From Desulfohalovibrio reitneri (GTDB taxonomy: Bacteria > Desulfobacterota > Desulfovibrionia > Desulfovibrionales > Desulfovibrionaceae), in assembly GCF_000711295.1 (NCBI RefSeq), contig NZ_JOMJ01000004.1:62001-126000 (forward strand): 64,000 nucleotides of DNA, written 5' to 3'. The notes beneath the pieces were generated by a model, which was given only the letters and a program-made list of their open reading frames with translations, searched no databases and had not been told where the DNA came from. Positions 8,065 through 53,839 of this stretch are shown here, piece by piece; the first letter of the stretch is position 1, and each line of letters begins with the position of its first letter. The translations under genes were made by a program, and so were the position numbers.

Positions 8065-8103
8065 ATACGGGCGGAAGGCATTCCCCACTAAAGGAGACTT
8101 CCC

Positions 8104-8805
8104 GTGAAAAAGATCGTGCTGGCTCTGTTTCTGCTCTGCCTGCCCTCCATGGCCTCCGCCCTGCCGGTGGTGAGCCTTGGGCCGTCAATCCAGTCCGACT
8201 CCGACTTTTTCTCCTGGCTGCCGGCCGGCGGCGTGGAGACGTTCGTGGCCCAGGGCCGCATCGGCGACCTCGGCGGCGCCGCCACATACGAGGTTGGGCT
8301 GCACGGTCCGGACATGTTCACAAACGCCGGGCCGATACCCGGAGGCAGCAGCCAGTGGGCCTGGTCCAACGGCGTGGGCTACGATTTCAGCCTGTCCCGC
8401 TCCGGCGGCCTCATAAACTTCCAGCTTGGCGGCTACGACGGTTCCCTGGCCGAGTCGGCCGAGACCAACCTGCTGGCCATCCGCATGTCCGTGGCCCCGG
8501 ACAGCGGCCTTGACCTGACAGGCCTGGAGATGGACGGCTCCCAGTTGCCCGACTTCGCCAACGACAACAACCTCGCCAACCGGATCGTGGCCTACATGGT
8601 GGTTGAGGGGTTCGGCGCCGACTTCTATTTGGACGGCCTGGCCGGGATGTCCTGGCTGAACCAGGCGCCGGGGCAGTCGAACCTGGCCTTCCAGATCAAG
8701 GGCTACAGCGTGCCCAACCCCGTGCCCGAACCGGCCACCCTGCTGTTTTTGGGCGCCGGACTCCTGCCCATGGCCTACATGGCCAGGCGGAAGAAGCGGA
8801 ATTGA
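8104..8805 (+). CDS. PEP-CTERM protein 2 (exosortase substrate)
   Basis: 233-residue secreted protein with a signal peptide ending near SMASA and the tail VPEPATLLFLGAGLLPMAYMA followed by RRKKRN. The middle looks like a beta-rich adhesin or matrix domain; it resembles the choice-of-anchor families seen on PEP-CTERM proteins, but this is only an impression. The start is GTG, with AGGAG eight bases upstream. It is a single-gene unit with its own sigma-54 promoter and a hairpin after the stop. Confidence 0.88.
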   Translation: MKKIVLALFLLCLPSMASALPVVSLGPSIQSDSDFFSWLPAGGVETFVAQGRIGDLGGAATYEVGLHGPDMFTNAGPIPGGSSQWAWSNGVGYDFSLSRSGGLINFQLGGYDGSLAESAETNLLAIRMSVAPDSGLDLTGLEMDGSQLPDFANDNNLANRIVAYMVVEGFGADFYLDGLAGMSWLNQAPGQSNLAFQIKGYSVPNPVPEPATLLFLGAGLLPMAYMARRKKRN

Positions 8806-8858: not shown

Positions 8859-8982
8859 GGCGCGTGGTGCGGGGAACAATGCGTGGAACGGACAACTCGG
8901 CCCGCTCCATGTTTCATGGAAACGGGTGGAGCGGAAGCCGCGCAACCCCCTTGCTGTGGGCGGAAATAGCGGCTTTTCCTTT

Positions 8983-8998
8983 TGGCATGCTTCTCGCT
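8983..8998 (+). promoter_or_regulatory. Sigma-54 promoter of the acyltransferase operon
   Basis: TGGCATGCTTCTCGCT keeps the GG/GC spacing and shares the TCGCT -12 form with the sites at 17718 and 38445. It lies 95 bases before the GTG start at 9094. CGGACAACTCGG at 8889-8900, upstream of it, is nearly repeated at 38375-38386 upstream of another sigma-54 site. Confidence 0.7.
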
Positions 8999-9093
8999 TG
9001 ATTCTCGTGTTGGACCTTGCCGCCAGCCCCGCGCCAGGCCGTCCGCCATTGCCGCGAGGGCGGGCTTTGGGCGTGGTCCACGGGAGGAGAAGT

Positions 9094-9996
9094 GTGAAAC
9101 GGAGCATCGAACGGCGCCGCACCATCCGGATCCGGCGTTCGTCACTGCTGGAAGCCAGGCTGGAAGACCTGGACAGGCCGAGCATCAAGATCGCGGAGAC
9201 CCTGGACGAGTACATCCAGTCCTTCCGCCTGGTGCATGACGAGTATCTGGCCCAGGGATACATCCCCGTGCCGGAGTCGGGGGGAATGAGTTACAACCTG
9301 TACAATTTCCTGCCGAAAACCTGTATCTTCATCTTCAAGTCCTACCTGGACGTGCTGTCCACCCTGACCTACGTGCCGGACAACGACGTATTCGGCCTGC
9401 CCATGGACACCCTCTACAAACCCGAGGTGGACGAGCTGCGGGCCAGGGGGCGCAAGGTGGTGGAGCTGGGCGCGCTGGCCACCGTGCGCAGCAAGCGCTG
9501 GCGCAACATCCTGATGATGACGGTCAAGGCCATGTTCCATTACGCCAAGTTCACCCGGGCCAACGACCTCTGCATCACGGTCAACCCCAAGCATGTCCGG
9601 TTCTACAAGAACATTTTTCTTTTCGAGGACTTCGGCGAGGAACGCTTCTTCGAGAAAGTGGGCGCTCCGGCCGTGGCCCTGCGGGTGTCATTCGACAACA
9701 TCGAGGAAAAGCTGGCCAAGACCTACGGCGGCATGGACTTCGACACCGACCTGCACGGCTTCTTCGTGCAGATGAACCGCAACCCCATGGAGCCGGACAT
9801 TCCTGAATACCAGGTGGAGCGGCGCAGGCCCCTGGAGTACGAAGTGGCCAGGCACCTGCTGGCAAACAAGCCGGAGCTCCTGTGCGACTTCAAGAACGAG
9901 GAGCAGGCCAGATACTTCGAGGGCTTGTATCACAAGGCACTGTACGCGCCGACCGGGGTGGCCAGGGTTCCCTGCGCGCCCGACGTGACGCAATGA
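9094..9996 (+). CDS. FeeM-like N-acyl amino acid synthase / exosortase-associated acyltransferase
   Basis: 300-residue cytoplasmic protein of the autoinducer-synthase/GNAT-like fold, closest in look to FeeM (N-acyl amino acid synthase) and to the acyltransferases reported beside PEP-CTERM systems. Recognisable parts are the N-terminal IAETLDEYIQSFRLVHDEYL and the central ELGALAT strand. It should transfer an acyl chain from acyl-ACP or acyl-CoA to an amine; the amine is unknown. GTG at 9094 is chosen because GGAGGAG lies four bases upstream and conserved sequence begins only after it. The stop overlaps the next ATG (ATGA), so the two genes are probably translationally coupled. An N-acyl-homoserine lactone synthase is the main alternative. 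Confidence 0.8.
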   Translation: MKRSIERRRTIRIRRSSLLEARLEDLDRPSIKIAETLDEYIQSFRLVHDEYLAQGYIPVPESGGMSYNLYNFLPKTCIFIFKSYLDVLSTLTYVPDNDVFGLPMDTLYKPEVDELRARGRKVVELGALATVRSKRWRNILMMTVKAMFHYAKFTRANDLCITVNPKHVRFYKNIFLFEDFGEERFFEKVGAPAVALRVSFDNIEEKLAKTYGGMDFDTDLHGFFVQMNRNPMEPDIPEYQVERRRPLEYEVARHLLANKPELLCDFKNEEQARYFEGLYHKALYAPTGVARVPCAPDVTQ

Positions 9997-12047
9997 ACAT
10001 CATCGAGGACAAACGGCTCGAAGGCCCCTGGGCCGGTCCGCTGGGCAGGCTGGGCATCACCACGCTGGAGCAGTTCCAGGACGAGGCCTTCGCCCGCAAC
10101 CTCGGCATCCTGGACTTGGCGGAGCAGGACAGGCTGTCCCAGGCCACCGTCTGCATCCCCGGCATGGGCGGGGTGGGCGGCCAGCACCTCATGGGGCTGG
10201 TGCGGCTGGGCATCCGCCGTTTCCGGCTGGCCGATCTGGACACCTTCGACCTGGCCAACTTCAACCGCCAGTATGGCGCCACGCTCAACGGCCTGGGCTC
10301 CCCCAAGCTGGACGCCATGCACTCCACGGCCTGGTCGGTGAACCCCTTCCTGGAAGTGGAGCAGTACCCGGACGGGCTGGGGGAGCAGAACATCTACTCC
10401 TTCCTCAAGGGCGCGGACCTGGTCATGGACGGCCTGGATTTCTTCGAGTTCCCCATGCGGCGGCGGCTGTTCACCCTGGCCAGGGAGATGGGCATACCAG
10501 TGGTCACGGCCGGGCCCCTGGGGTTCGGGGGCGCGCTTCTGGTCTTTACCCCGGAGGGCATGTCCTTCGACCGCTACTTCGACATCCGCGAGGGGCAGAC
10601 CCTGGAGGAGCGCTTTCTGCGCTTCGGCATGGGGCTGGCCCCCAAGGGGATGCACCTCAAGTACATGGACCTCGGACGGGTGAACCTGCACGCCAAGGCC
10701 GGGCCGTCCACCTCCATCGCCTGCCATCTGTGCGCCTCCCTGGCCTGCATGGAGGCCATCCGGCTGCTTCTGGACCGGCCCGGCGTGCGCGAGGCCCCAC
10801 GCTACATGCAGTTCGATCCCTACCTGACCAGGCTGCGCACCGGAAAGCTGCGCTGGGGCAACCGTGGACCGGTGCAGCGCGCCAAGATTTTCGTGGCCTC
10901 GCGTTTCCTTCTGGACAACGAGCCGCCGGCCGGGCAGCGCGCTCCGGATTTTCCGGACACCATCATGGTGGGCTCCTCGGTGAGCGACGAGGCCCTGCGC
11001 TACATCATGCACGCCGGCGTTGCCGCGCCCTCCGGGGACAACGCCCAACCCTGGAAGCTGCGGCCCAAGTCCTCGGCCGTGGGCCTGCACCTGGACGCCG
11101 ACGCGGACCGCTCCTTCTTCAACGTGCGCCAGATCGCCTCCCTCATCTCCTGCGGGGCGGTGCTGGAGAATATGCGCGTGGCGGGGGCGGCCATGGGGCT
11201 GCGGGGCGAGGTGGTGGAGGCGGACTCCTTCCCGGGGAACGGCCCGGTGGCCGAGCTGCGACTGACCGCCGCTCCGGAGGTTGGGGACGCCCTGCACGAC
11301 GCCATCTGGGAGCGCACCACCAACCGCCGCCTTTACAGCCGCAAGCCGGTGCCCGAGGGGGTGCAGCGCCGCCTGGCCCGCGAGGCCGGGCTTGTGGGCG
11401 GGGTGCGTTTGCACTGGCTGGAGGGGAAGGAGAGCCTGGAGCGGCTGGCCCGCGTGGTGGCCAGGGCGGACACCATCCGCACGGAGCACCGGGGGCTGCA
11501 CGAACATTTCCACGCCATGCTGCGCCACTCCAAGGACGAGGCGCGCAAAACCCGCGACGGCCTGCCCGTGGACAACCTCTACGCGGGCAAGTCCGGGGAG
11601 TTGTTTCTGCGGGCCACCGGACCGTGGCCGGTCATGCGGACGGCCAACCTCTTGGGAGCCAGCCGCATGATGGCCATGCACTCGGCGCGGGGCATCCGCC
11701 ACAGCGGGGCGGCCGTGCTGCTGACCACCACCGGCTTCGGCTGGGAGGACTTTCTGCGAGGCGGCCGGGCGCTTGAGCGGTGCTGGCTGCGGCTCAGCCA
11801 GCTGGGGCTGGCCATGCAGCCCATGACCGCCATCACGCTTTTCCGCCTGCGTTGGGTGCTGGAAGGGGAGGAGGAGTTCGACCCGGTGCACAGGAAGCGG
11901 CTACGTTCCCTGTGGCCCATCTACCAGGAACTGTTTCCCCAGGCCAACCTGGACCGCGAGGGCGAGGTCATGCTCTTCCGCATCGGTCACGCCCGGCCCA
12001 TCACCCGCGGCACCCTCCGCCGCAAGCTGGATTCCTTCATTCTCTAG
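9993..12047 (+). CDS. ThiF/E1-like adenylyltransferase fused to a nitroreductase-like domain
   Basis: 684-residue two-domain protein. Residues about 35-270 are an E1/ThiF/MoeB-like domain: nucleotide loop GMGGVGG (57-63), NFNRQ (89-93), Lys105, MDGLD (145-149) and cysteines in ACHLCASLAC (243-252). Residues about 325-670 are a nitroreductase-like FMN domain with APSGDNAQPW (345-354) and a typical C-terminal GLAMQP segment. The layout resembles the Rv1355c family of mycobacteria. E1-like plus FMN oxidase pairs also occur in azole biosynthesis (McbB/McbC type). Here the likely task is activating the carboxylate of the acyltransferase product and then oxidising it; this is inference. The ATG overlaps the upstream stop. 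Confidence 0.82.
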   Translation: MNIIEDKRLEGPWAGPLGRLGITTLEQFQDEAFARNLGILDLAEQDRLSQATVCIPGMGGVGGQHLMGLVRLGIRRFRLADLDTFDLANFNRQYGATLNGLGSPKLDAMHSTAWSVNPFLEVEQYPDGLGEQNIYSFLKGADLVMDGLDFFEFPMRRRLFTLAREMGIPVVTAGPLGFGGALLVFTPEGMSFDRYFDIREGQTLEERFLRFGMGLAPKGMHLKYMDLGRVNLHAKAGPSTSIACHLCASLACMEAIRLLLDRPGVREAPRYMQFDPYLTRLRTGKLRWGNRGPVQRAKIFVASRFLLDNEPPAGQRAPDFPDTIMVGSSVSDEALRYIMHAGVAAPSGDNAQPWKLRPKSSAVGLHLDADADRSFFNVRQIASLISCGAVLENMRVAGAAMGLRGEVVEADSFPGNGPVAELRLTAAPEVGDALHDAIWERTTNRRLYSRKPVPEGVQRRLAREAGLVGGVRLHWLEGKESLERLARVVARADTIRTEHRGLHEHFHAMLRHSKDEARKTRDGLPVDNLYAGKSGELFLRATGPWPVMRTANLLGASRMMAMHSARGIRHSGAAVLLTTTGFGWEDFLRGGRALERCWLRLSQLGLAMQPMTAITLFRLRWVLEGEEEFDPVHRKRLRSLWPIYQELFPQANLDREGEVMLFRIGHARPITRGTLRRKLDSFIL

Positions 12048-13447: not shown

Positions 13448-14509
13448 TCATTCATCCGCTTGCGGCGCCCCGTCCACCTGGATGAAGGCGTCCATGCGCA
13501 GCCCGGGGTAGATGTCGGGGTTGCCTTCGAAATCGATGAGGACTTCCAGCACCCGGCGATCCTTGCGCTCCTCGGGTTCGCCGGTCTGGATGCGCTTGGG
13601 CCCCACCATCTCGCCCACGTCGATGACCACGCCGGGGAAGCGCCTGTCCCCGTAGGCGTCGGCCCGGGCGTAGGCGGGCTGCCCCTCGCGCACCAGGGCC
13701 ACGTCGCTCTCGTCCACCTCGGCCCGCAGCCGCAGTTGACTCATATCGCCCACGGTCATCACCGGGGAGGCGAAGAATTCCGACACGGCCTCCCCCTCCT
13801 TGCGGTGGATGCGCAGGATCTCCACGGAGCGGCGGGTGCGCAGTTCGGTGTTCTGCAGGGCGGCCCTGGCCTCGTCCACCCGCGCCTTGGCCTCTTCCAG
13901 GAGGGCGCTGGCCTCGGCGATGTCCTCCTCCCGGCCGGTGGCTGTCTGCTGGTACTGCTGCCGGATGGCCTCGTACCGCTGCTCCGCCTCCTGGTACTCG
14001 GTCCAGGCGCGTTCCGCGGTCTCCTGGTCGATGAGGTCCTGCTCCACCAGCTCCTGCCTGCGCTCGGCCTCCTTGCGGGCGTTGCGCATAGTCACCTGGG
14101 CCCGCTGCAGTTCGGCCAGAACCTCCTTCTGCTTTTCCGGACGCGCGCCGGAGAGCATGCGGTCCAGGGCGGCCTCGCGGGCGGTGACCAGGTTTTCCGC
14201 CTGGGCCAGCATGGCTTCCTCCTCCTCGCTTTCCAGGGTGGCCAGCAGGGTGTCGGGCTCCACGTTCCGCCCCTCTTCCACCAGAATCTCCTTGATAACG
14301 CCGGTGGCCTCGAAAGAGAGCAGGATTTCCTCGTCCAGGGGCTCCGCCCGTCCGGCGGCGGCCACCCACCGCCCGTCCTCCTCGTCGGGCATGGTCTCCA
14401 CGAAGGAGGATGTGGCGTTTTCCGCGGGCGCGGGCTGGCGGCTCTGCCAGATGGCCACCGAGCCGCCCGCCAGGATCAGGATCGCGAGCAGGAGAAGGAT
14501 GGTTTTCAT
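13448..14509 (-). CDS. HlyD-family periplasmic adaptor (DevB-like)
   Basis: 353-residue membrane-fusion protein linking an inner-membrane ABC exporter to an outer-membrane channel. It has one N-terminal membrane anchor (residues about 3-20), a lipoyl-like half-motif (FEATGVIKEILVEEGRNVEP), a long alpha-helical hairpin (about 100-225) and C-terminal beta domains. Its ATG overlaps the stop of the ATPase gene by four bases, making it the last gene of a four-gene operon. No outer-membrane TolC partner is encoded here. Confidence 0.88.
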   Translation of the reverse strand: MKTILLLLAILILAGGSVAIWQSRQPAPAENATSSFVETMPDEEDGRWVAAAGRAEPLDEEILLSFEATGVIKEILVEEGRNVEPDTLLATLESEEEEAMLAQAENLVTAREAALDRMLSGARPEKQKEVLAELQRAQVTMRNARKEAERRQELVEQDLIDQETAERAWTEYQEAEQRYEAIRQQYQQTATGREEDIAEASALLEEAKARVDEARAALQNTELRTRRSVEILRIHRKEGEAVSEFFASPVMTVGDMSQLRLRAEVDESDVALVREGQPAYARADAYGDRRFPGVVIDVGEMVGPKRIQTGEPEERKDRRVLEVLIDFEGNPDIYPGLRMDAFIQVDGAPQADE

Positions 14510-15228
14510 GGTTCGCCTTCGGCATCTAGAGGTTGTTCCCTGGAAAGCTTGCCGTCCTCGATGGTCACGACCCGGTCGGCGTACCGGCGGATGCGCGGGT
14601 CGTGCGTGACCACCACCAGCGTCCTGCCCAGCTCGAAGGTCAGCCGGTGGAGCATGTCCAGGATGCGTTGGCCGTTCTCCGAGTCCAGGGCGGCCGTGGG
14701 CTCGTCAGCCAGGATGATTTCCGGTTCGCCGCACAGGGCGCGGGAGACGGCCAGCCGCTGCTTTTGGCCGCCGCTGAGCTTGGCCGGATAACTTGACAGC
14801 TTGTCCGACAGCCCCACCCAGTCCAGCCGTTCCTCGGCTATCTCGCGTGCCTTGCGGCCCCGGATTCCCTTGAGGTCCAGCACCACCAGCAGGTTCTGCA
14901 CCACACTGAGGGTGTGGAAGAGGTGGTATTCCTGAAAGATGAAGCCGATGTGGCGCAGCCGCACCTCGGCCAGGCGGCCCCGGCCCAGGGAGGTGATGTC
15001 CTGCCCGGCGATCATGATCCGTCCGCTGTCCGGGGTGAGGATGCCACCCATCATGGACAGCAGGGTGGTCTTGCCGCTGCCGGAGGGCCCCATGAGCAGC
15101 AGGGTCTCACCCCTGCGCACGCGCAGGTCGGCCCGGTTCACGGCCAGGGTGGCGGAGGGGCCGGAGCCGAAGCGCTTGGTGACGTCGCGCAGCTCCAGCT
15201 GGATGGAGTCGTCCCGGGACATGCTCAT
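14506..15228 (-). CDS. ABC transporter ATP-binding protein (LolD/DevA-like)
   Basis: 240-residue ATPase with Walker A GPSGSGKTT, signature LSGGQKQR, Walker B IILADEPTAALD and the switch His in VVVTHD. This belongs to the MacB/LolD/DevA class that works with FtsX-type permeases. The ATG at 15228 overlaps the permease stop (ATGA); an ATG six bases further on is an alternative. With the permease and adaptor it should export a lipid, glycolipid or peptide across the envelope; the cargo is not shown by sequence. Confidence 0.92.
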   Translation of the reverse strand: MSMSRDDSIQLELRDVTKRFGSGPSATLAVNRADLRVRRGETLLLMGPSGSGKTTLLSMMGGILTPDSGRIMIAGQDITSLGRGRLAEVRLRHIGFIFQEYHLFHTLSVVQNLLVVLDLKGIRGRKAREIAEERLDWVGLSDKLSSYPAKLSGGQKQRLAVSRALCGEPEIILADEPTAALDSENGQRILDMLHRLTFELGRTLVVVTHDPRIRRYADRVVTIEDGKLSREQPLDAEGEP

Positions 15229-16355
15229 CGCCCCTTGAAGACCAGCATGGGGTCGGTCTGGGTGATCTTGTTGATGGAGACCAGGGACGCGCCCAGGCAC
15301 ATGGCCAGGGTGAGGAAGAACATCCCCCCCACCACGGGCCAGGGCAGGCGGATGAGGGCCTCGGCGTTCTGGCTGAGCCGGGCCACTCCCAGGCTGGCGG
15401 CCATGCCCAGCAGGTAGCCCCCCACCGCGCTGATGACCGCCTGGGCGATGAGGATGCGGTAGATGTACGCGTTGGGCGCGCCCACCGCCTTGAGGGTGGC
15501 GAATTCCGGCAGGTGGTCCATGGTGGTGGCGTAGAGTGTCTGGGCCACCACCACCATGCCCACCACCAGCCCCAGGAAGGCGGCGATGAGCAGGGCCATG
15601 CCCGCGCCGGTGCTGAGCATCCAGTAATTGATGGTTTTCAGGCTGAATTCGCCCGTGGTGAAGACGTCCACGTCGTCCACCCTGGCCAGGATGCGTTTCT
15701 TGAGCTCACTGGAGGAAACGCCGTCGGCGGCCTCCACCAGGATGTAGACCAGCTGGTCCTCCTGGACTGTGGAGTACTCCAGGGCGTTCTTGAAGGAGGT
15801 GAAGACGTAGGGGGAGGTGGTGAAGGAGCGGATGCCGTGGGTGAAGGCCACCACCCGCGCCCGCTTGTTGGCGATTTCGGCCGAGTCGCCCAGATCCACC
15901 ACGCCCAGCTTCTCGGCGTACAGCCTGTCCACCACGATGGTGTCGCGGATGTCCAGCCAGTCCGTGTTCCCTTCCACCAGGTTCCACGGCCCGCCAAGCC
16001 CCTTCTCCAGCTCGTAGCCCACGATCTCGATGGATTCCAGGTCGCCGTTGGGCTTTTTCCAGTTGGCGAACTGGATGATGAGCTTGCCGGTGCGCGCCAC
16101 CCCGGGCACGGCCATGACCAGGTTGTTGGTGCGCTCCTCCATGGGCAGGGCGATGTCGAAGTTCTTAATGCCGCGCGAGGCCACCCACACGTCCGCCCCG
16201 GAGTTGTCGATGACTCCGGAGATGGTCGTGGTGAAGCCAATGAACAGCCCCAGTTGCACACTTATGAGCACAACCGCGAAGATGACCCCGATGAGGGTCA
16301 CAGCGAGCCGAACCTTGTCGTGGACAAGGTTGCGGTACGCCAGAGGTACGATCAC
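15225..16355 (-). CDS. FtsX-type ABC transporter permease (DevC-like)
   Basis: 376-residue inner-membrane permease: one N-terminal helix (about 17-37), a large periplasmic domain (about 40-245), then three helices near 250-275, 300-325 and 340-362. This is the usual topology of FtsX/MacB/DevC proteins. Overlaps of four bases on both sides (wbpP upstream, ATPase downstream) show one operon. It resembles the cyanobacterial DevC exporter that secretes heterocyst glycolipids, but here the substrate is unknown. Confidence 0.9.
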
Positions 16356-17404: not shown

Positions 17405-17846
17405 GCATCCCTCTCTGCGGTTTGGTTCACGCGGGTTGTTCAAGAAGCGTGCAAGCCGGGGGAAGCGGTCGGGCAAACCAGCCCATTCGAGTTAAAATCG
17501 TGTGCTTCCAGCTGGTTGTCTTGCCACCCTTCCAGGCTGGGAGCCTGTCGGGGGCGAACCGAGGGTGCGGAAACGTCCCGGTGGTGTCCGGGGAAAGTAT
17601 TTCGCGGGCGGACTATTCCGAAAAAACCGGACAAGCGGGGGGTGGTCGGAGGGGGCAGCGTGGGGGCTGTGTGTTCTACTAGCTTGAAATGTTTATTTTT
17701 ATTTTGCCAGCGGATGCTGGCACGCATTTCGCTCAAGAGGGGGACAGGCATCGGGCCCGGCCGCCGTGACGCGGCTTGGGGACGAAGAGAACAGGCCGGC
17801 CCTCCTCGGCCGGCAATCGGGGAAACAACCTGGGGAGAGTGAACTC
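17405..17846. promoter_or_regulatory. Divergent control region between wbpP and prsT
   Basis: 442 bases without a gene. It holds the sigma-54 element at 17718-17733 for prsT, and upstream of it TGTCCGG (17585-17591), the palindrome CGGACTATTCCG (17609-17620) and CCGGACAAG (17627-17635), which could be activator sites. An A/T-rich patch (17680-17705) lies between. I see no clear promoter for wbpP. Confidence 0.6.
17718..17733 (+). promoter_or_regulatory. Sigma-54 promoter of the prsT polysaccharide operon
   Basis: TGGCACGCATTTCGCT has a perfect -24 box and correct -12 GC spacing. The same 16 bases recur at 38445-38460 before the second polysaccharide operon. It is 114 bases before the prsT start. 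Confidence 0.82.
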
Positions 17847-20507
17847 GTGTTCAGAGCAAGAACCTTTCTCGCGGCCGTATGCGCGGCCTTCCTGCTTCTG
17901 GCGGCCGGATGCGGCCAGGACAAGGCCTCCCTGTACGAACAGGGCCGCGAAATGCTGGAAAACGGGGACTACAACGGGGCCATCGTGCATCTCAAGAACG
18001 CCCTGGAGAAGGACCCCAATCTCGAGGACGCGCGCTTCGACCTGGGCCGGGCCTACATGGAGGCCGGGAAGTTCGACCGGGCCGAGGCGGAATTCAAGAA
18101 GGCCCTCCTCCTGGATCCCTACGACAAGCGGGTCAGCCTGCATCTGGGCCGCATAGAGAACTCCCGCCGCAATCCGGACAAGGCGAGGGAGCACATCCGC
18201 GAATACCTCGAGGAATACCCGGAGGACGCGGCCGGGTACGAGCAGTTGGCCTACGCCTACTCGGTGGACGGCCGGCCGGAGTTGGCCGTCACCCAGCTGC
18301 GCAAGGCGCTGGAGCTCGAACCGGACAGGACCTCGGCCCGTCTGGGGCTGATCCACACCCTCATGGACATGGGCGAGAACCGCGCCGCGGGGAAAGAGGT
18401 GGAGATCATCCTGACGGACGATCCGGACAACCGGGCGGCGCTGCACGCCAAGGCGCAGCTGGAGAGTCAGGAGGGCGACCTGGACGCCGTGCTGGCCACT
18501 TACACCCGCATCGGTTCGGCCCACCCCGGGGACCTCTACGCCCGCTACAAGGCGGCCACCCTGCTCGGAGATCGCGGCGAACTGGACGAGCTGAACAAGA
18601 CCGCCGAAAAGATCATGGCCGAGTACCCCAAGAAGGCCCAGGGCTACAAGCTCAAGGGACAGTACCATTTCAAGACGGGCAACTACGAGGAAGCGGTCAA
18701 CTCCCTGCGCGAGGCCATCAAGATTCAGCCCGACCTGGAGTCGTACTACCTCCTGGGCCTGGCCTTCTCCCAGCTGGGCAACCTGGAGATGGCGGTCAGC
18801 CAGCTCAACACCGTGCTGGACTACAGCCCCGAATTCACCAAGGCCCGCCTGCTGCTGGCCGAGGTGCTGGTGCGGCAGAAGCGCGGCGACATCGCCTTGA
18901 GCGAAGTGGACAAGGTGCTGGAGTCCAATCCGGCCGATCCGGCCGCCCTGGCCCTGAAGGGCGACGCCCTGCTCTCCATGAACCGCAACCGCGAAGCCCT
19001 GGAGTGGTTCGACAAGGCCGCCGAGCGGGCCCCGAAGATGTACCAGCTGCACCTCAAGAAGGGCATGCTGCGGGTGGTCATGGGGGAGCACGAACAGGGC
19101 GAGGTAGACCTGCGCCGCGCTGTTGAGGAGGCTCCCGAGGTCAACGCGCCGCGCCTGGCCCTGCACGCCCTGCTCAACGGCCAGGGCCGCGCCGAGGAGG
19201 CCGAGGCGGTGCTGCGCGAAGGGCTGGGCGGCGGCAAGAGCGACGCCACGCTGCTCAACGCCCTGGCCGGAATGAAGATCCGCGCCGGAAAGCCGGATGA
19301 GGCGGAGCGCCTCATGGCCCAGGCCAAGGAGGCCGACCCGGATTTCCTGCCAAGCTACCACGGCCTGGCCACCACGTATCTTTCCCGGGGCGACAAGGAG
19401 AAGGCCCTGGCCGAGTACCAGGCCGCCCTTGAGCGCGCCCCGGAAGACCTCAAGTCACTGCTGGGGGCGGCGGCCGTGCTGGATATGCAGGGCGAGACCG
19501 TCCGTGCCGGGGAGTACCTCCGGCGCGCCGCGGACGGCGGCAGCGAGCGCGGGATCACCACCCTGGCCCGCTTCCACATGCATCACGACAAGCCGGCCGA
19601 GGCCCTGACCATCCTGGAGGAGGGCATGGAGCTGCACCCGCACTCCAAGAGCCTCCAGCTGCTCAAGGCCGAGGTCCACTTGGCCATGGACGATTTCGAC
19701 AAGGCCATGGCCGAGTACTCGGCCATTGAAACCCGCGACCCCTGGCTGGGCCTGCTGCACAAGACCCGCGCCCTGGCCTCCCGGAAGCGCTTTGGCGAGG
19801 CCGAGGACATGGCCCGGCAACTGGCCCAGGTGAAGCCGGACAACGGCTTCTCCTACCTGCCCCTGGCCCTGGTGCTGGAACTGAGCGGCCGGCGAGACAA
19901 GGCGGATGAGGTGCTCCAGCGGGCCATGGAGACCGATCCGGACAATGTGGAAGTGATCATGGCCCGGGCCAGGCTGAGCAGGGCGCAGGGCCGTCTGGAC
20001 GAGGCCGAGAAGCTGTACGATCGGGTGGTCGAGCGCGATCCGAAGAATCCGGACGCCCTGACCAACAAGGGCGTGCTGCGCCAGATGCAAGGCGACGAGA
20101 AGGGCGCGGAGCGGGCCTATGCCCTGGCCGTGCGGGCCGATGCGGACTACGTGCCGGCCCTGAACAACCTGGCCATGATCTACGCCGACATCGAGGGCAA
20201 ACGGGACCTAGCCTACAGAATGGCTGTCAAGGCCTACTCGGCCGCCACCGGCAGCCCCGGCGTCGCCGACACCCTGGGCTACGCCATGCTGCGCAACGGC
20301 CGCCCGGAGGAAGCCCTGAAGATGTTCAACCGCGCCCTTGAAGGCGCGCCCGAGAACCCCACCATCCACTACCATCTGGCCCTGGCCCACATCGAGTTGG
20401 GCCAGACCGAGCAGGCCGTGGCCAGACTGGACGAGGCCCTGCGGGTCCCCGCCTTCCCCGATCGGGACGAGGCCGGGCGTCTGCTGGACTCCCTGCGGAA
20501 CAACTAG
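17847..20507 (+). CDS. prsT: PEP-CTERM-system TPR lipoprotein PrsT
   Basis: 886-residue lipoprotein built almost entirely of tetratricopeptide repeats. The lipobox LLAAGC puts the lipid-bearing cysteine at residue 22. At least 15 helix pairs of TPR type follow to the end. Length and position at the head of an exosortase-linked polysaccharide operon match PrsT (TIGR02917 family). It probably scaffolds the export machinery in the periplasm, as PelB or AlgK-type TPR proteins do. GTG at 17847 follows GGGGAG and starts the signal peptide; longer frames run into the promoter. Confidence 0.9.
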   Translation: MFRARTFLAAVCAAFLLLAAGCGQDKASLYEQGREMLENGDYNGAIVHLKNALEKDPNLEDARFDLGRAYMEAGKFDRAEAEFKKALLLDPYDKRVSLHLGRIENSRRNPDKAREHIREYLEEYPEDAAGYEQLAYAYSVDGRPELAVTQLRKALELEPDRTSARLGLIHTLMDMGENRAAGKEVEIILTDDPDNRAALHAKAQLESQEGDLDAVLATYTRIGSAHPGDLYARYKAATLLGDRGELDELNKTAEKIMAEYPKKAQGYKLKGQYHFKTGNYEEAVNSLREAIKIQPDLESYYLLGLAFSQLGNLEMAVSQLNTVLDYSPEFTKARLLLAEVLVRQKRGDIALSEVDKVLESNPADPAALALKGDALLSMNRNREALEWFDKAAERAPKMYQLHLKKGMLRVVMGEHEQGEVDLRRAVEEAPEVNAPRLALHALLNGQGRAEEAEAVLREGLGGGKSDATLLNALAGMKIRAGKPDEAERLMAQAKEADPDFLPSYHGLATTYLSRGDKEKALAEYQAALERAPEDLKSLLGAAAVLDMQGETVRAGEYLRRAADGGSERGITTLARFHMHHDKPAEALTILEEGMELHPHSKSLQLLKAEVHLAMDDFDKAMAEYSAIETRDPWLGLLHKTRALASRKRFGEAEDMARQLAQVKPDNGFSYLPLALVLELSGRRDKADEVLQRAMETDPDNVEVIMARARLSRAQGRLDEAEKLYDRVVERDPKNPDALTNKGVLRQMQGDEKGAERAYALAVRADADYVPALNNLAMIYADIEGKRDLAYRMAVKAYSAATGSPGVADTLGYAMLRNGRPEEALKMFNRALEGAPENPTIHYHLALAHIELGQTEQAVARLDEALRVPAFPDRDEAGRLLDSLRNN

Positions 20508-46040: not shown

Positions 46041-47035
46041 GCGATTCCGGGGACGGCGCCGTGCAAGGCGTGTCCGTCATCATTCCCACCTACAACCGCG
46101 CCCGCTGCGTGCTGGACGCCATCCGCTCTGCCGTGGAGCAGGACCCGCCCCCGCTGGAGGTGGTGGTCATCGACGACGGCTCCACAGACAACTCCGGGGA
46201 GCTGATCCGCGACTTCGGCCATCCCCTGGTCCGGTACCAATGGCAGGAGAACAAGGGCCTCTCCGGGGCGCGCAACGCGGGCCTGCGGCTGGCCAGGGGC
46301 GACCTGTGCGCCCTGCTGGATTCGGATGACACCTGGCTGCCGGGCAAGCTGGCCGCCCAGGAACGGATCATGCGCGAGGACCCGGAATGCGCCCTGGTCT
46401 ACACGGACATGGTGGAGACGCGCTTCGGCGAGCTGGCCCACCGCTCCGTGCTGCACGAGAAGGGCTACCAGCGCCTGGGCGAGGGGTATCTCTACGAGAA
46501 CCTGCTGCATGAAAACTTCATCATACCCTCCACGGTCATGCTGCGCACGGAGGACGTGCGCCGCGTGGGCTATTTCGACGAACGGCTGCGCTCCTCCGAG
46601 GACCGCGACATGTGGCTGCGGCTGGCCGAGACGCGGAAGTTCCGCTTCGTGGACCAGCCGCTGTGCATGCGCAACATCGACTCCGACGCCCTGACCGGCG
46701 ACCTGGACAAGTGGATCACCAACCAGCTGGCCATGTTCCGCGAGCACCTGCGGCTGCGGCGGGCCGAGCCATTGGGCGGCCCCTACGAGGGGCGCGGGGA
46801 GGCCATCGTCAAGCGGCTGGAGGAAAACGTCCACCTCGCCCTGACCACCCTGGGGCAGAACTGTTTCCGGAACTTCGACCTGCCCCGGGCGCGCCGCCTG
46901 CTGCGCGAGAGCCTTGGGCGCAGGTTGGACAGGCACAACCTCAAATACTACCTGGCTTCGCACGTCCCCGCTCCGGCCCTGCGCCGGTTGAAGCGGCTCA
47001 AGGACGCCCGCGCGGCCGGGAGGGAGCACGCATGA
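46037..47035 (+). CDS. Glycosyltransferase family 2
   Basis: 332-residue GT-A enzyme with VIIPTYNRARCVLDA, VVIDDGSTDN and LLDSDDTWLPGK. No membrane helix. ATGA overlaps link it to the glycosyltransferase before and the exosortase after. Confidence 0.92.
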   Translation: MSDSGDGAVQGVSVIIPTYNRARCVLDAIRSAVEQDPPPLEVVVIDDGSTDNSGELIRDFGHPLVRYQWQENKGLSGARNAGLRLARGDLCALLDSDDTWLPGKLAAQERIMREDPECALVYTDMVETRFGELAHRSVLHEKGYQRLGEGYLYENLLHENFIIPSTVMLRTEDVRRVGYFDERLRSSEDRDMWLRLAETRKFRFVDQPLCMRNIDSDALTGDLDKWITNQLAMFREHLRLRRAEPLGGPYEGRGEAIVKRLEENVHLALTTLGQNCFRNFDLPRARRLLRESLGRRLDRHNLKYYLASHVPAPALRRLKRLKDARAAGREHA

Positions 47036-47868
47036 CGCTGACGACCGCTCTCCGCCGAACCTGGCCGGGCTGGGTGGCCTTCTTCGCCGTTCTTTCACTG
47101 GTTTATTTCCCCGTGGTTCAGGGCATGGTCGAGGACTGGGCCACGGACGAGAACTACTCCCACGGCTTCCTGGTGCCGCTCATCGCGGGCTACCTGGTCT
47201 ACCGCAAGCGGGACGAGCTGAACCAGACCCCGGTCGGCACCGCCCCCATCGGATTGGCCGTGGTGGCCGGAGGGGTGGGCATGCTGGTGCTTGGCTGGCT
47301 GGCCTCGGAGTACTTCACCATGCGCTCTTCCCTGGTGGTTGTCCTGGCCGGGGCCTCGCTCTTTCTGCTGGGACGACGGGTGACGGGCAAGCTGGCCGCG
47401 CCGCTGGCCTACCTGCTGCTCATGGTGCCCATCCCCTACGTGCTCTACAACGCGGCCGCCTTCCCCCTGAAGCTGTTCGTCACGGAAATCTCCGTGTTCA
47501 CGCTCAAGACCATGGGCGTGGTGGTCTGGCAGGAGGGGAACATCCTCATGTTCCCCCACATCACCCTGGAGGTGGCCAACGCCTGCAGCGGGCTGCGGTC
47601 CATCATGTCCCTGCTGGCCATCGGCGTGGCCTACGCCCTCATTTTCCACCGCTCCAACATCCAGCGGGCGCTGCTCATCCTGTCAACCATCCCCCTGGCG
47701 GTCATCACCAACGCCCTGCGCGTGGTGGGCACGGGCATTCTGGCCAAGTACTTCGGCGAGGCCGCGGCCAAGGGCTTCTTCCACGAGTTCGCCGGACTGT
47801 TCGTTTTCATGACCGCCGTGGCGCTGTTCGTGGCCCTCGGCGTGGTACTCAAGAGGATTGGGATATGA
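47032..47868 (+). CDS. Exosortase (PEP-CTERM protein-sorting peptidase)
   Basis: 278-residue inner-membrane transpeptidase-like enzyme with about eight helices. The predicted catalytic triad is intact: Cys185 in EVANACSGLRS, Arg230 in TNALRVVG, His251 in FFHEFAG. It should cut the PEP-CTERM tails of the proteins at 7132, 8104, 12462 and 55912. It lacks the C-terminal EpsI domain fused to many XrtA enzymes; EpsI is encoded two genes later, with a sulfotransferase in between. ATG at 47032 is in an ATGA overlap. Confidence 0.94.
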   Translation: MTLTTALRRTWPGWVAFFAVLSLVYFPVVQGMVEDWATDENYSHGFLVPLIAGYLVYRKRDELNQTPVGTAPIGLAVVAGGVGMLVLGWLASEYFTMRSSLVVVLAGASLFLLGRRVTGKLAAPLAYLLLMVPIPYVLYNAAAFPLKLFVTEISVFTLKTMGVVVWQEGNILMFPHITLEVANACSGLRSIMSLLAIGVAYALIFHRSNIQRALLILSTIPLAVITNALRVVGTGILAKYFGEAAAKGFFHEFAGLFVFMTAVALFVALGVVLKRIGI

Positions 47869-48806: not shown

Positions 48807-49435
48807 TGGTCTGGTGGCGTTTTCTGGCGGTTTCCCTGTTGGTGGCTTGCGCAGGTGCCTTCATGCATCTGCATGAGGACGTGGCCGTGCCTCTGGCCCG
48901 CCCCCTGGAGCAGTTCCCGGCCTCCCACGAGGGATGGCGCATGGTGGGGCAGTCCCAGCTCAGCTCGGGCGAAATCCAGGTGCTCAGGCCCACGGACTAC
49001 CTCGCCCGGCGTTACCGCCACGAGGACGGGCACACCGTGGACCTGTTCATCGGCTACTTCTCCGGCTCGGAGGAGGCGGGGGGCATCCACTCCCCGCGCA
49101 ATTGCATGCCCGGCAGCGGCTGGACGCAGTTGTCCTCAACCCCCACGTCACTGGACGTGGGCGGCGAACAGGTCAATCTGGTCAAGGCGGTCTACGGCAT
49201 GGGCCAGACCAGGGACATGCTCCTGTACTGGTTCCAGATGCGCGATTTGACCCTCAACGACGAGTACTCGCTGAAGATCAGGGAGGTGCTCAACTCCGCG
49301 CTGCACCGCCGCCGCGACGAGAGCTTCGTGCGCATCTCCACCCCGGTCCGTGGAACGAAAGACGCGGCTTGGGAGGCCGGAACCCGTTTCGTGCGGGACT
49401 TCTATCCGGTCATCGACGGATTCCTGCCGGAGTAG
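48803..49435 (+). CDS. epsI: EpsI-like exosortase-associated protein
   Basis: 210-residue protein with one N-terminal membrane anchor and a periplasmic EpsI domain: SHEGWRMVG, the LFIGYF strand and HSPRNCMPGSGW, containing the conserved Cys of the family. It is found with exosortases and polysaccharide export, though its biochemical role is unclear. GTG at 48803 (GGGGAGG five bases upstream, overlapping the previous stop) or the adjacent ATG at 48806 begins the gene. Confidence 0.9.
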   Translation: MMVWWRFLAVSLLVACAGAFMHLHEDVAVPLARPLEQFPASHEGWRMVGQSQLSSGEIQVLRPTDYLARRYRHEDGHTVDLFIGYFSGSEEAGGIHSPRNCMPGSGWTQLSSTPTSLDVGGEQVNLVKAVYGMGQTRDMLLYWFQMRDLTLNDEYSLKIREVLNSALHRRRDESFVRISTPVRGTKDAAWEAGTRFVRDFYPVIDGFLPE

Positions 49436-49437
49436 CC

Positions 49438-51561
49438 ATGCCTCGGAACCTGGCCTATCCCACCATTTCGGGCGCGGCCGTCATTCTGACCGTGGTCTTT
49501 TGCGTCTACCTGGTGGCCAGGACGGCGCGGGGACACGGAGGGGCGGCACACGCCGCCCTGGCCGCCGCCCTGGCCTGCACGGCCATGGTGGAGCTGTGCG
49601 ACCTGCTGGCCCTGCTGGGGCCGGAGGGTGTCGGCCCCTGGCGCCAGGCGGCGGTGGTGGCCGAGGGGGCCATGTGTCCTGCCTGGCTGCTCTTCACCGT
49701 GCTTTTCGCCCGCCGCTACGAGGAGCGGTCCATGCCCTGGACCCAGCGGGGCATGGTCCTGGCGGGATGCCTGATGCCCCTGTTCGGGGCCTACCTGGCC
49801 GTCCGGGGCTACTACTACGCGCCCAACTTCGACTCCGAGCCCATCCTTTTCCTGCACGGCGGGGCCTTCTATTTCTACCTGGGGGTCGTGCTGTGCTCGG
49901 TGCTGGCCCTGTTCAACCTGGAGGGCACCCTGGCCGGGGCCACCCACCACCGCCGCTGGAAGATCAAGTTCGTCCTGCTTGGCGCGGTGGCCGTGCTGGG
50001 CACCCAGGTGCTGTACTACAGCCAGGGGCTGCTCAATCGCTCCCTGAACCTCGGCCTGGCCCCGGCCCGTTCCCTGGCCCTGCTCCTGGGCGTGGGGCTC
50101 ATGTGGTACTCCCTGGCCCGCCGGGGCGGGGAGGTGAAGATCAGCTTTTCGCGGCGGCTGACCTATAAGTCGCTGGTGCTGGCGGCCGCGGGCATCTACC
50201 TGGTGGTGCTGGGGCTGGCGGGCGAGGGCGCGCGGCAGCTCGGCGAGTCTCTCAGCCCGGTGGTGCTCCTCTCCATTGGCATCGTGGCCGGGCTGGCCCT
50301 TCTGGTGGTCAGCCTCTCCGAAACGGTGCAGCGCAAGGTGAAGGTCTTTCTGCAGCGCCACTTCTACCAGGAAAAGTACGACTACCGGCAGCAGTGGATG
50401 CAGTTCACCAAGCGGCTGCACGCCGCCCGCACCGTCCACGAGTTGCATCAGACCGTTCTCGGTGCTTGGTGCGAGACCTTCGGGCTGGAGGGCGCGGCCA
50501 TGTTCCTGCACCGGCAGGCTGACAACCGCTTCGCCTGCGTCTCGGCCCTGGAGATCCTGCAGCCCGAGGTCCGGTTCGCCCCGGACTCTCCGCTGGTGCG
50601 CGCGCTGCGGCGCACAGGCGGCACGGTGGACGTGCGCGGCGGACTGGCGGGCGAGGGCGGCGAGGCGGCCAGCTACCTGGAGGCCTCCGGGGCCACCTTC
50701 GCCGTGCCCCTGACCCGCGAGGGCGAGCTGGACGGCTTCGTGCTCATGGGGCCGACCATCAACAAGGCGGAGTCCTACGACCTGGAGGACTTCGAGCTGA
50801 TGGACACCATGGCCGGGCACGTGGCCTCGGCACTTTTGAACATGCGGCTTTCCGACCAGCTGGCCAAGGCGCGGGAGATGGAGGTCATGGGCAAGGTCTC
50901 CACCTTCGTGGCCCACGACCTCAAGAACCTAGTCTACACGCTTTCCCTGGTGGTGGAGAACGCGGGCAAGTACATCGCCGACCCGGACTTCCAGAAGGAC
51001 ATGCTGGGCTCGTTGGACAGCACAGTGGGCAAGATGAAGGTCCTCATCTCCCGGCTGAAGGGGCTGCCCGAGCGCCACACCCTGAAGCGTGAGCCGGTTC
51101 GGCTTTTGACCGCCGCCCGAGAGGTGGCCGGGCTGGTGCCCGGCGAGCGGCTGCGGCTGAACGGCGACGACGTGTGCGCCGAGGTGGACCGCGAGGAGTT
51201 CTCCAAGGTCATCCTCAACCTCTGCCTCAACGCGGTGGAGGCCAGCACCGACGGCGGCGAGGTGCGGGTGGAAACCGGCAGCGACGGTGGGCCCTACCTG
51301 CGGGTGGAGGACTCCGGCCGGGGCATGGAGGAATCCTTTCTTTCCGAGGCCATTTTCCAGCCGTTCCAGACCACCAAGAAGGGAGGCATGGGCATCGGCC
51401 TGTACCAGTGCAAGCAGATCGTCGAGGCCCACGGCGGGTGCATCGAGGTCAGCAGCGCGCCGGGCGAGGGAACGGTATTCGTGGTGCGCCTGCCCGAGCA
51501 CGCGCTCTGCCGGGGCGGCGACGAGGCTGAATCGCAAAGGTTTTCCCAAGGGAGCGCGTGA
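49438..51561 (+). CDS. prsK: Membrane sensor histidine kinase PrsK
   Basis: 707-residue kinase. Eight or so N-terminal helices (about 8-295) form a membrane sensor; a GAF-like domain (about 325-470) precedes the H box FVAHDLKN with His493, the N box NLCLNAVEA and G boxes DSGRGM and GMGIGLYQC. The arrangement matches PrsK (TIGR02916 family), the partner of PrsR in PEP-CTERM systems. The signal is unknown. ATG at 49438 lies two bases after epsI; the cognate regulator is one gene downstream. Confidence 0.93.
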   Translation: MPRNLAYPTISGAAVILTVVFCVYLVARTARGHGGAAHAALAAALACTAMVELCDLLALLGPEGVGPWRQAAVVAEGAMCPAWLLFTVLFARRYEERSMPWTQRGMVLAGCLMPLFGAYLAVRGYYYAPNFDSEPILFLHGGAFYFYLGVVLCSVLALFNLEGTLAGATHHRRWKIKFVLLGAVAVLGTQVLYYSQGLLNRSLNLGLAPARSLALLLGVGLMWYSLARRGGEVKISFSRRLTYKSLVLAAAGIYLVVLGLAGEGARQLGESLSPVVLLSIGIVAGLALLVVSLSETVQRKVKVFLQRHFYQEKYDYRQQWMQFTKRLHAARTVHELHQTVLGAWCETFGLEGAAMFLHRQADNRFACVSALEILQPEVRFAPDSPLVRALRRTGGTVDVRGGLAGEGGEAASYLEASGATFAVPLTREGELDGFVLMGPTINKAESYDLEDFELMDTMAGHVASALLNMRLSDQLAKAREMEVMGKVSTFVAHDLKNLVYTLSLVVENAGKYIADPDFQKDMLGSLDSTVGKMKVLISRLKGLPERHTLKREPVRLLTAAREVAGLVPGERLRLNGDDVCAEVDREEFSKVILNLCLNAVEASTDGGEVRVETGSDGGPYLRVEDSGRGMEESFLSEAIFQPFQTTKKGGMGIGLYQCKQIVEAHGGCIEVSSAPGEGTVFVVRLPEHALCRGGDEAESQRFSQGSA

Positions 51562-52460: not shown

Positions 52461-53839
52461 GCAGCCTACTGATCGTCGACGACAACAAGGACATCCTGAC
52501 CCAGCTCAAGTGGGGGCTGGCCTCGGAGGGGTGGGACCTGCACTTCGCCCACGACGCGGACGAGGCCCTGCGGATGTATGACGAGGTGGCCCCCAAGGTG
52601 GTCACGCTGGACCTGGGCCTGCCTCCGGAGGAGGACAATTCCAGCGAGGGCTTCCGGTGCCTGGTGGAAATGCTCAAGTCCAACCACCCCGCCCGGGTCA
52701 TCGTCATCACCGGCAACGACGAGCGCGAGAATGCGCTCAAGGCCGTGCAGACCGGGGCCTACGACTTCTTCCGCAAGCCCATCGACCTGGACGAGCTGCG
52801 GGTCATCATCCGCCGCGCCTTCCACCTCTGCGACATCGAAGCGGAACAGCCCGGGGAGGAGGCGGAGGAAAGCAACGGCGTGGCCGAGAGCCACGGCATC
52901 GTGGGCACCTGTCCGGCCATGCGCTCCATCCTGACCATGATCGACCGTGTTTCCTCGTCGGACGTGCCGATCCTCATCTCCGGCGAGTCCGGCACGGGCA
53001 AGGAGCTGGTGGCCAAGGCTGTGCACGAGAAGAGCCCCCGCAGGGGGGGGCCATTGGTCACGGTGAATTGCGGGGCCATCCCGGAGAACCTGCTGGAGTC
53101 GGAGTTCTTCGGCCACGAGAAGGGGGCCTTCACCGGAGCCAGCTCCCTGGTGCGGGGCAAGGTGGAGTACGCGGACAAGGGCACTCTCTTCCTGGACGAG
53201 ATCGGCGAGCTGCCCATGAACCTGCAGGTCAAGATTCTGCGCTTCCTGCAGGAGATGGTCATCCAGCGGGTGGGCGGCCGCAAGGACATCGAGGTCAACG
53301 TGCGCATCATCGCGGCCACCAACGTCGATCTGCCCCAGGCCATCGAGGAGGGAGCCTTCCGCGAGGACCTCTACTACCGTCTCAGCGTGGTCAATCTGCA
53401 CTTGCCGCCCCTGCGGGACAGGGGCGAGGACGTACGGCTCCTGGCGGAGCACTTCCTGCGGCGGCTCACCGGGGACATGCACCGGGAGATAACAGGCTTC
53501 ACCCCGGAGGCGCTGGCCTACCTCACCTCCTATGACTGGCCCGGCAACATCCGCGAGCTGGAGAACAAGGTCCGCCGGGCCATCGTCCTGGCAGGCGGTT
53601 CCCGCATCACCCCGGAAGACCTGGGATTCGTGGGCCACGGCACGCGGGGCAACGGCGAGACCCCGCCCCTTTCCGGCACCCTGCGGGAGGCGAGGGCGGG
53701 GCTGGAGAAGAAGATGGTCAAGTCGGCCTTGACTCGCTGCCAGGGCAACATCCTCAAGGCTTCCGAAGAGCTGGGGATAAGCCGTCCCACCATGTACGAC
53801 CTGCTGAAAAAGCACGGCATCGAGAACTGGGGCAAGTAG
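52457..53839 (+). CDS. prsR: Sigma-54 response regulator PrsR
   Basis: 460-residue NtrC-family activator. Receiver domain with phospho-acceptor Asp52 (VVTLDLG); AAA+ domain with GESGTGKE (176-183) and the sigma-54 contact loop GAFTGA (223-228); C-terminal Fis-type helix-turn-helix (NILKASEELGISRPTMYDLL). The match is to the PEP-CTERM-box response regulator (TIGR02915 family). It should activate the -24/-12 promoters at 7894, 8049, 8983, 13331, 17718 and 38445. The ATG at 52457 overlaps the previous stop. Confidence 0.95.
   Translation: MSSLLIVDDNKDILTQLKWGLASEGWDLHFAHDADEALRMYDEVAPKVVTLDLGLPPEEDNSSEGFRCLVEMLKSNHPARVIVITGNDERENALKAVQTGAYDFFRKPIDLDELRVIIRRAFHLCDIEAEQPGEEAEESNGVAESHGIVGTCPAMRSILTMIDRVSSSDVPILISGESGTGKELVAKAVHEKSPRRGGPLVTVNCGAIPENLLESEFFGHEKGAFTGASSLVRGKVEYADKGTLFLDEIGELPMNLQVKILRFLQEMVIQRVGGRKDIEVNVRIIAATNVDLPQAIEEGAFREDLYYRLSVVNLHLPPLRDRGEDVRLLAEHFLRRLTGDMHREITGFTPEALAYLTSYDWPGNIRELENKVRRAIVLAGGSRITPEDLGFVGHGTRGNGETPPLSGTLREARAGLEKKMVKSALTRCQGNILKASEELGISRPTMYDLLKKHGIENWGK

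Follow-up and report, generated by a model that had tools for sequence, protein, structure and literature searches.

A predicted N-acyl-oxazolone operon with a putative sigma-54 promoter in an exosortase A locus of Desulfohalovibrio reitneri

The gene pair, its known counterparts and its catalytic residues

A stretch of 64,000 nucleotides from Desulfohalovibrio reitneri (contig NZ_JOMJ01000004.1, positions 62,001 to 126,000; hereafter "the window") was analyzed, and it contained an operon of two genes, a FeeM-type N-acyl amino acid synthase (gene 1) and a protein in which a ThiF/E1-like domain was fused to a nitroreductase-like flavin domain (gene 2). The positions of both genes and of the features discussed below are listed in Table 1. 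The genes overlapped in an ATGA, with the ATG of gene 2 placed on the TGA of gene 1. This arrangement had been described in an earlier reading made from the letters alone (the sequence-only reading), and the gene overlap and the motifs quoted there (GMGGVGG, NFNRQ and APSGDNAQPW, all in gene 2) were all found. Gene 1 matched the FeeM family PF21926 (E 1.3e-42, over the Pfam cut-off) and the solved FeeM structure 2g0b (E 1e-8), and its family alignment consisted of 24 sequences. Gene 2 matched ThiF (PF00899, E 3.4e-40) and Nitroreductase (PF00881, E 3.7e-6), both over the Pfam cut-offs. The only NCBIfam model over its cut-off for gene 2 was NF006077 (PRK08223, "hypothetical protein"; 342 vs 266), which concerned the ThiF part. 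PRK14851 (NF011424, "hypothetical protein") spanned nearly all of gene 2 with an E value of 2.7e-252 and a score of 838.7 bits, below its cut-off of 1170, and the scores for the Rv1355c family (248, cut-off 476) and the Acg family (164.1, cut-off 199) were also below their cut-offs. Consecutive stretches of the 989-residue model PRK14852 (NF011425, "hypothetical protein") were matched by the two genes, residues 5-283 by gene 1 and residues 292-795 by gene 2; the matches to PRK14851 and PRK14852 stayed below the curated cut-offs, and the window carried two separate genes. In PHROGs, gene 2 gave weak matches to its ThiF part without an assigned function, and gene 1 had no match. The AlphaFold2 model of gene 2 had a mean predicted local distance difference test score (pLDDT) of 88.1, and its top solved structures in Foldseek were Acg (2ymv, target template modelling (TM) score 0.79) and ThiF of E. 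coli (1zfn, target TM 0.85).

Table 1. Features of the operon and of the surrounding exosortase locus, with positions in the window.
Feature	Position	Strand	Basis or remark
Gene 1, FeeM-type N-acyl amino acid synthase (OxzA/TyzA/TrzA-like)	9094..9996	+	GTG start, 300 aa; Pfam, 2g0b match
Gene 2, oxazolone synthetase-like ThiF-nitroreductase fusion (OxzB/TrzS-like)	9993..12047	+	684 aa; profiles, alignment, AlphaFold2, Foldseek
Gene 2, ThiF/E1-like, predicted ATP-dependent cyclase domain	9993..10892	+	residues ~1-300; invariant residues in alignment
Gene 2, Acg-type, predicted flavin-dependent oxidase domain	10965..12044	+	residues ~325-684; 2ymv phmmer 5.2e-10
Sigma-54 (-24/-12) promoter-like element TGGCATGCTTCTCGCT	8983..8998	+	95 bp before the GTG of gene 1; scan score 18.3 of 19.4
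CGGACAA, putative activator site	8889..8895	+	94 bp upstream of the sigma-54 element; precedes four other window sigma-54 elements
Exosortase A (XrtA)	46612..47868	+	TIGR03109, 217.7 bits over cut-off of 208; domain starts near 47074
PrsK histidine kinase	48934..51561	+	TIGR02916, 503.5 bits over cut-off of 300
PrsR response regulator	52466..53821	+	TIGR02915, 608.2 bits over cut-off of 502.6
Second NtrC-type sigma-54 regulator, rival candidate activator	57734..59305	+	below the PrsR cut-off (293 vs 502.6)
PEP-CTERM protein gene	8104..8805	+	TIGR02595 over cut-off; composite promoter 7940/8049
TPR protein, candidate PrsT	17766..20507	+	Pfam TPRs; composite promoter 17628/17718
DevBCA-type ABC exporter (HlyD, ATPase, permease), convergent with the operon	13448..16355	-	NCBIfam DevB and DevC below cut-off; ATPase 14506-15300 by eye

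The three predicted activities of the pair, acylation, a ThiF-type step and a flavin oxidase step, are common to the OxzAB, TyzACB and TrzAS systems, in which an aromatic amino acid is acylated, cyclised with ATP and then desaturated (PMC10404671, PMC12856293). OxzAB of Pseudoalteromonas rubra, like the window, has an acyltransferase gene and a single ThiF-nitroreductase fusion (PMC10404671, PMC12856293), and its products are N-acyl tyrazolones and phenazolones (de Rond et al. 2021, via PMC10404671, PMC12856293). OxzAB is gammaproteobacterial and was likened to the window genes by its description rather than by the OxzB sequence; the descriptions of it in the cited passages of PMC10404671 and PMC12856293 mention neither an exosortase locus nor sigma-54. 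TrzAS (Rv1356c-Rv1355c) of mycobacteria and Rhodococcus also consists of two genes with a ThiF-flavin oxidase fusion, but it is actinobacterial, has cyclic di-GMP (c-di-GMP) genes alongside and makes tryptazolones with O2 (PMC12856293). Tryptazolones were reported not to survive acid or methanol. The top Foldseek match of the TrzS oxidase domain was likewise reported to be Acg (PMC12856293). TyzACB of Mycobacterium tuberculosis shares the three activities and the proposed reactions, whereas its ThiF and oxidase proteins are separate and the order of its steps is not obligate (PMC10404671). The stieleriacine clusters of Stieleria contain acyltransferase, ThiF and nitroreductase genes as the window does, but the latter two are separate, methyltransferases are present, and the reported products are open-chain N-acyl tyrosines (PMC12479983, PMC7293339); a PEP-CTERM gene is located inside the cluster of S. 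maiorica (PMC7293339). At the level of mechanism, and by analogy, the two genes are best classed with the N-acyl-oxazolone pathways (OxzAB/TyzACB/TrzAS). The "possible undescribed small-molecule pathway" of the sequence-only reading was therefore dropped, because the same architecture is already characterised in OxzAB, TyzACB and TrzAS, while its outline of acylation, activation of the carboxylate and cyclisation or oxidation agreed with these systems (PMC10404671, PMC12856293). Its comparison with azole biosynthesis gave way to the oxazolone pathways, which are nearer. The chemistry of azoles and of ribosomally synthesised and post-translationally modified peptides was set aside because no YcaO protein was found among the scanned window proteins (a scan that covered part of the window genes and nothing else in the genome), and since all three domains are accounted for by the oxazolone pathway.

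The residues expected at the active sites of gene 2 were conserved. In an alignment of 19 sequences (window included), residues G57, G59, G60, G62, N89, N91, R92, Q93, K105, D146, and D149 of the ThiF domain were invariant, as were the APSGDN-QPW motif and residues R441, T443, N444, R445, R496, H503, Q609, and P610 of the flavin domain. All 35 Desulfovibrionales sequences compared, that of the window among them, kept the catalytic residues D149, R496, and Q609; the draft genome G126 was left out of this set because its homologue was split across two frames. These three residues appeared to be the equivalents of D217, R540, and Q651 of TrzS, for which variants have been reported: D217A gave no cyclised product, R540A let the cyclised intermediate build up, and Q651A gave less product (PMC12856293). 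The equivalence was read through a homologue on a Mycolicibacterium plasmid (L155), used in place of the TrzS sequence. Residues R527 and Q638 of this homologue, each the published TrzS number minus 13, and residue D202, the published number minus 15, aligned with R496, Q609, and D149 of gene 2, respectively. The ThiF domain of gene 2 thus seemed to have an intact ATP site, including the aspartate equivalent to D217 of TrzS.

Conservation and linkage to the exosortase locus

A survey of 297 genomes of the class revealed a homologue of gene 2 (hereafter the synthetase; E <= 1e-60) in 36 genomes. In 35 of these 36 loci (window included), the synthetase was preceded on its own strand by an acyltransferase; 20 of the partners were adjacent, 3 were fused into single frames of 967-968 aa (G078, G246, and G068), and 12 were found at 1.1-5.3 kb, while the one locus without an upstream acyltransferase was on a short contig. 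Strong FeeM matches (E < 1e-30) were present in 45 of the 297 genomes, including all 36 with the synthetase. In the draft genome G126, the synthetase homologue (C115:1131-2962, L067) was split over two frames, which points to either a damaged gene or a fault in the assembly, and the exosortase match of the same genome was a long frame of 540 aa. In Nitratidesulfovibrio vulgaris DP4, the acyltransferase, ThiF and nitroreductase parts formed a single gene of 989 aa on plasmid pDVUL01 (DVUL_RS15680, L153:19128-22097), with an exopolysaccharide operon on one side, PEP-CTERM genes on the other and a nif cluster some 15 kb away. A gene with a PilZ domain and a gene for a sigma-54 regulator were located on the same plasmid between the PEP-CTERM genes and an ABC exporter (L153:25383-29738), which hints at c-di-GMP input. 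Wider relatives of gene 2 were taken from named genome records and sorted by likeness to the query, and many of the best 80 of 211 carried the titles of sulfate-reducing groups.

The window itself contained an XrtA/PEP-CTERM locus, in which exosortase A, PrsK and PrsR were found together, all over their cut-offs. Exosortase (PF09721) was over its cut-off in 82 of the 297 genomes, and every one of the 36 genomes with the synthetase was among them (hypergeometric 7.5e-24, without correction for relatedness). The pairing of the two genes and their company with an exosortase, both put forward for checking by the sequence-only reading, were found well beyond this genome. In all 30 genomes with the synthetase and the exosortase on the same contig, the distance between them was 12.1-51.9 kb (median 26.8 kb); the remaining 6 genomes were drafts with the exosortase on another contig. 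When the curated cut-off for XrtA was applied, the synthetase was present in 26 of 34 genomes over it vs 10 of 47 others with a TIGR03109 match, and at 184 bits, a threshold picked after inspection, in 36 of 48 vs 0 of 33. Among the best 80 of the 211 wider relatives, exosortase was found in 38 of the 50 genomes tested, a count that has no background rate. A link between N-acyl amino acid synthases and exosortase/PEP-CTERM systems was published in 2011 by Craig, Cherry and Brady (as cited in PMC4897644, PMC7293339), and their title and the citing passages describe FeeM-type synthases in an exosortase setting like that of the window. In the open-licence papers searched, "oxazolone" and "PEP-CTERM" occurred together in unrelated use only. 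Co-occurrence, linkage and the shared promoter described below all support a coupling between the operon and the exosortase locus, and the tie of the fused synthetase to XrtA-type loci in sulfate reducers is apparently new.

The shared promoter, candidate activators and neighboring genes

The sequence-only reading had placed a sigma-54 element before the operon, of the same type as those of the polysaccharide operons, and this was borne out by its scan score and by a composite promoter common to several genes. The scan matrix was home-made from a sigma-54 consensus. Matches of at least 16.5 were not in excess in the window (28 vs 34.3 in shuffles), and an excess was seen only among the strongest ones, at 17.5 (9 vs 4.1). 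A tight sigma-54 pattern gave 25 matches in the 3.39-Mb genome, equal to the 25 of the reversed control, and 6 of the 25 fell in the window, where about 0.5 would be expected if they were spread evenly (binomial 5.9e-6). The composite pattern, with CGGACAA 61-113 bases upstream of a tight sigma-54 site, matched five times genome-wide, always in the window, and the reversed control gave none. The genes behind these five matches were the PEP-CTERM gene at 8104, the operon at 9094, the TPR gene at 17766, a TIGR03790 gene at 38467, and a gene at 55873. CGGACAA was found upstream of 5 of the 6 window sigma-54 sites and of 0 of the 19 elsewhere in the genome (Fisher 1.1e-4); these p values are optimistic because both patterns were fitted to these sites. 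CGGACAA alone was rejected as a signal, since its 30 copies in the window vs 7.7 expected made it uninformative, and only its combination with a sigma-54 site was informative. As evidence for a putative promoter, the composite pattern is stronger than the matrix score, and its sharing by the operon, the PEP-CTERM gene and three other genes is apparently new. In N. vulgaris DP4, scores of 17.7-18.4 were obtained before the fusion gene and the TPR gene (18.4 each), a hypothetical gene, and one PEP-CTERM gene; lower scores were obtained for two PEP-CTERM genes (15.2 and 16.5), the PilZ gene (15.5), and the regulator gene (13.0). In the window, two divergent genes, one a PEP-CTERM gene by model and the other by eye, started from a 225-bp region (7878-8104) with sigma-54 elements at 7909 on the minus strand and 8049 on the plus strand.

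The host genome contained rpoN. Control of PEP-CTERM genes by PrsKR and sigma-54 was predicted by Haft et al. 2006 from a motif 1 ending in TTTACA, located 32-92 nt upstream of a sigma-54 motif 2 (PMC1569441). The operon had motif 2, in the form of its -24/-12 site, but no TTTACA was found on the plus strand between 8806 and 9093; among five other window sites checked, TTTACA occurred in the 150 bp upstream of the 38445 promoter only. PrsR was not accepted as a proven activator because TTTACA was absent upstream and because another NtrC-type regulator was located near the operon in relatives. In 12 of 31 relatives (those with at least 14 kb of sequence, window left out), a homologue of this second regulator, encoded at 57734 in the window, was no more than about 10 kb away from the operon. 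The identity was 35-47% (43-47% for 8 of the 12); in the window, the regulator was 46 kb from the operon. As a candidate activator, the 57734-type regulator appears to be at least as good as PrsR. The sequence-only reading had the operon acting in step with exosortase-dependent matrix formation under RpoN/PrsR; the coupling is supported, with PrsR as a candidate activator. A gene for a GGDEF diguanylate cyclase (59888-61360) was located near the 57734 regulator, and c-di-GMP genes also flank trzAS of mycobacteria (PMC12856293).

In the same 31 relatives, the genes near the operon included the acyltransferase in 31, a TPR protein in 23, an ABC ATPase in 13, a DevC-type permease in 12, HlyD in 12, and EpsB2 in 10. 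The permease of those 12 relatives was on the opposite strand, 4-6.4 kb downstream of gene 2, as in the window, and the DevBCA-type transporter is a reasonable candidate for an exporter of the lipid product. Two genes of the sulfotransferase family were also found by Pfam in the exopolysaccharide region (6103-7014 and 47865-48806) and could mean a sulfated matrix polymer. A gene resembling PaaK/AMP-dependent coenzyme A (CoA) ligases, below the cut-offs, was located inside the exosortase-associated polysaccharide operon (28862-30265).

A proposed pathway, its alternatives and its meaning

Judged by the order of its genes, their domains and catalytic residues, their linkage and the promoter sequence shared with other genes, the operon probably encodes an N-acyl-oxazolone pathway of the OxzAB/TrzAS kind that is transcribed by sigma-54 along with genes of the exosortase A locus. 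By analogy with the characterised relatives, from which the reactions and their order are taken, gene 1 would acylate the amino group of a probably aromatic amino acid with a fatty acyl group taken from acyl carrier protein or CoA. Gene 2 would then adenylate the carboxylate with its ThiF domain, and the amide oxygen would close the ring to form a 5(4H)-oxazolone, from which the flavin mononucleotide domain would remove two hydrogens to give a conjugated alkylidene oxazolone. The operon would be driven by its sigma-54 promoter, which is similar to those of PEP-CTERM and other exosortase A locus genes, and because of this resemblance we propose that lipid and matrix are produced at the same time. 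The lipid would perhaps be exported by the adjacent DevBCA-type transporter.

Several points weigh against this proposal. No product is known from any organism compared. Nine genomes had the acyltransferase but no synthetase at E <= 1e-60, which implies that gene 1 may act alone. Gene 2 was only 25-31% identical to the actinobacterial TrzS-like proteins over the aligned part; the Rhodococcus homologue (L154) had His at the position of Q609, and both actinobacterial homologues (L154 and L155) had Ser at G60, Glu at D146, and a gap at Q93. Exosortase was absent from 12 of the 50 further genomes tested, and the p value for co-occurrence overstates independence because the compared genomes are related. 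A strong sigma-54 site was located within 400 bp upstream of only 9 of 43 acyltransferase copies (window included; 3.2% of random windows), so control by sigma-54 is not universal; the stretch taken for G126 in this count was overlong, as the contig ends in the gene, and it scored below 17.5, which leaves 9 of 43 unchanged. The last step may also differ from the known cases. The desaturation was reported to depend on O2 for TyzC (PMC10404671) and TrzS (PMC12856293), whereas the host genome contained dsrA, which together with rpoN indicates that the host is probably a dissimilatory sulfate reducer, and it is presumably anaerobic. This puzzle of an O2-using desaturation in a dsrA-bearing host is apparently new.

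The oxygen problem could be solved if the pathway ran without O2, with the flavin domain using another electron acceptor or staying idle, so that a saturated oxazolone would be left; this appeared unlikely. The dsrA gene of the host and the many sulfate-reducer titles among the best 80 of 211 relatives agree with it, and TrzS gave a cyclised saturated intermediate under limited O2 (PMC12856293). However, the residues of the flavin site were fully conserved in the aligned sequences, so desaturation is probably under selection, and no pointer to another electron acceptor emerged from the analysis. The best 80 of 211 relatives also included Roseomonas and Methylomonas, which are groups of aerobes. 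A different end product, an open-chain N-acyl dehydro-amino acid that acts as a matrix surfactant or antimicrobial after hydrolysis of a transient oxazolone, was considered quite unlikely. The producers of stieleriacine, thalassotalic acid and kyonggic acid have genes of the same three kinds, for an acyltransferase, a ThiF protein and a nitroreductase, but according to the cited passages of PMC12479983 they were not observed to yield an oxazolone; moreover, a PEP-CTERM gene is present within the S. maiorica cluster (PMC7293339), and oxazolones are easily hydrolysed (PMC12856293). In those producers, however, the ThiF and nitroreductase genes are separate and a methyltransferase occurs in two of the clusters (PMC12479983), whereas gene 2 has the fused form of OxzB and TrzS, and TrzS yielded an oxazolone in vitro (PMC12856293).

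Two further alternatives concern the regulation of the operon and the role of the ThiF domain. It seemed rather improbable that the pair is an ordinary genomic neighbor of the exosortase locus without co-regulation. The low share of acyltransferase copies with a strong sigma-54 site (9 of 43) and the choice of CGGACAA after these promoters had been viewed would favor such an explanation, but it does not agree with the presence of CGGACAA at 5 of 6 window sigma-54 matches vs 0 of 19 elsewhere, nor with the sites scoring 18.4 at both the fusion gene and the TPR gene of N. vulgaris DP4. The ThiF domain might also activate the carboxylate so that a polysaccharide or protein becomes conjugated with the acyl amino acid, without ring closure. 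E1-like enzymes commonly hand adenylates to a nucleophile, and the operon was located among polysaccharide genes; nevertheless, this was judged very improbable, with no carrier, E2-like or sulfur-carrier gene recognised among the scanned window proteins and with the oxidase fusion already explained by the oxazolone pathway.

If the N-acyl-oxazolone pathway is kept, a bolder version of it, which we regard as highly doubtful, would be an O2-gated matrix switch. Without O2, the operon would give a saturated, easily hydrolysed oxazolone, and with O2 the flavin domain would make a conjugated, stable lipid that serves the exosortase-dependent matrix as a signal or a seal. Exported by the DevBCA-type transporter, this lipid would then be both a reporter of O2 and a component of the matrix.

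The physiological role of acyl-oxazolones has been called unresolved by those who characterised the pathway (PMC12856293). In sulfate reducers, our results connect the pathway with a single process, the formation of the exosortase-dependent matrix, through gene content, distance and promoter. Because N. vulgaris DP4 has the single-gene fusion together with this tie to the exosortase and matrix genes, a single gene of a laboratory organism would suffice to test the role of the oxazolone. A strain of D. vulgaris Hildenborough without its own plasmid, pDV1, is reported to form three-fold less biofilm (PMC3333781). The finding also raises the question of how an enzyme of an O2-using kind works in an anaerobe. 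Two things go beyond routine annotation: how tightly the pathway is tied to exosortase loci of the XrtA type in sulfate reducers, and its occurrence as a single gene in N. vulgaris.

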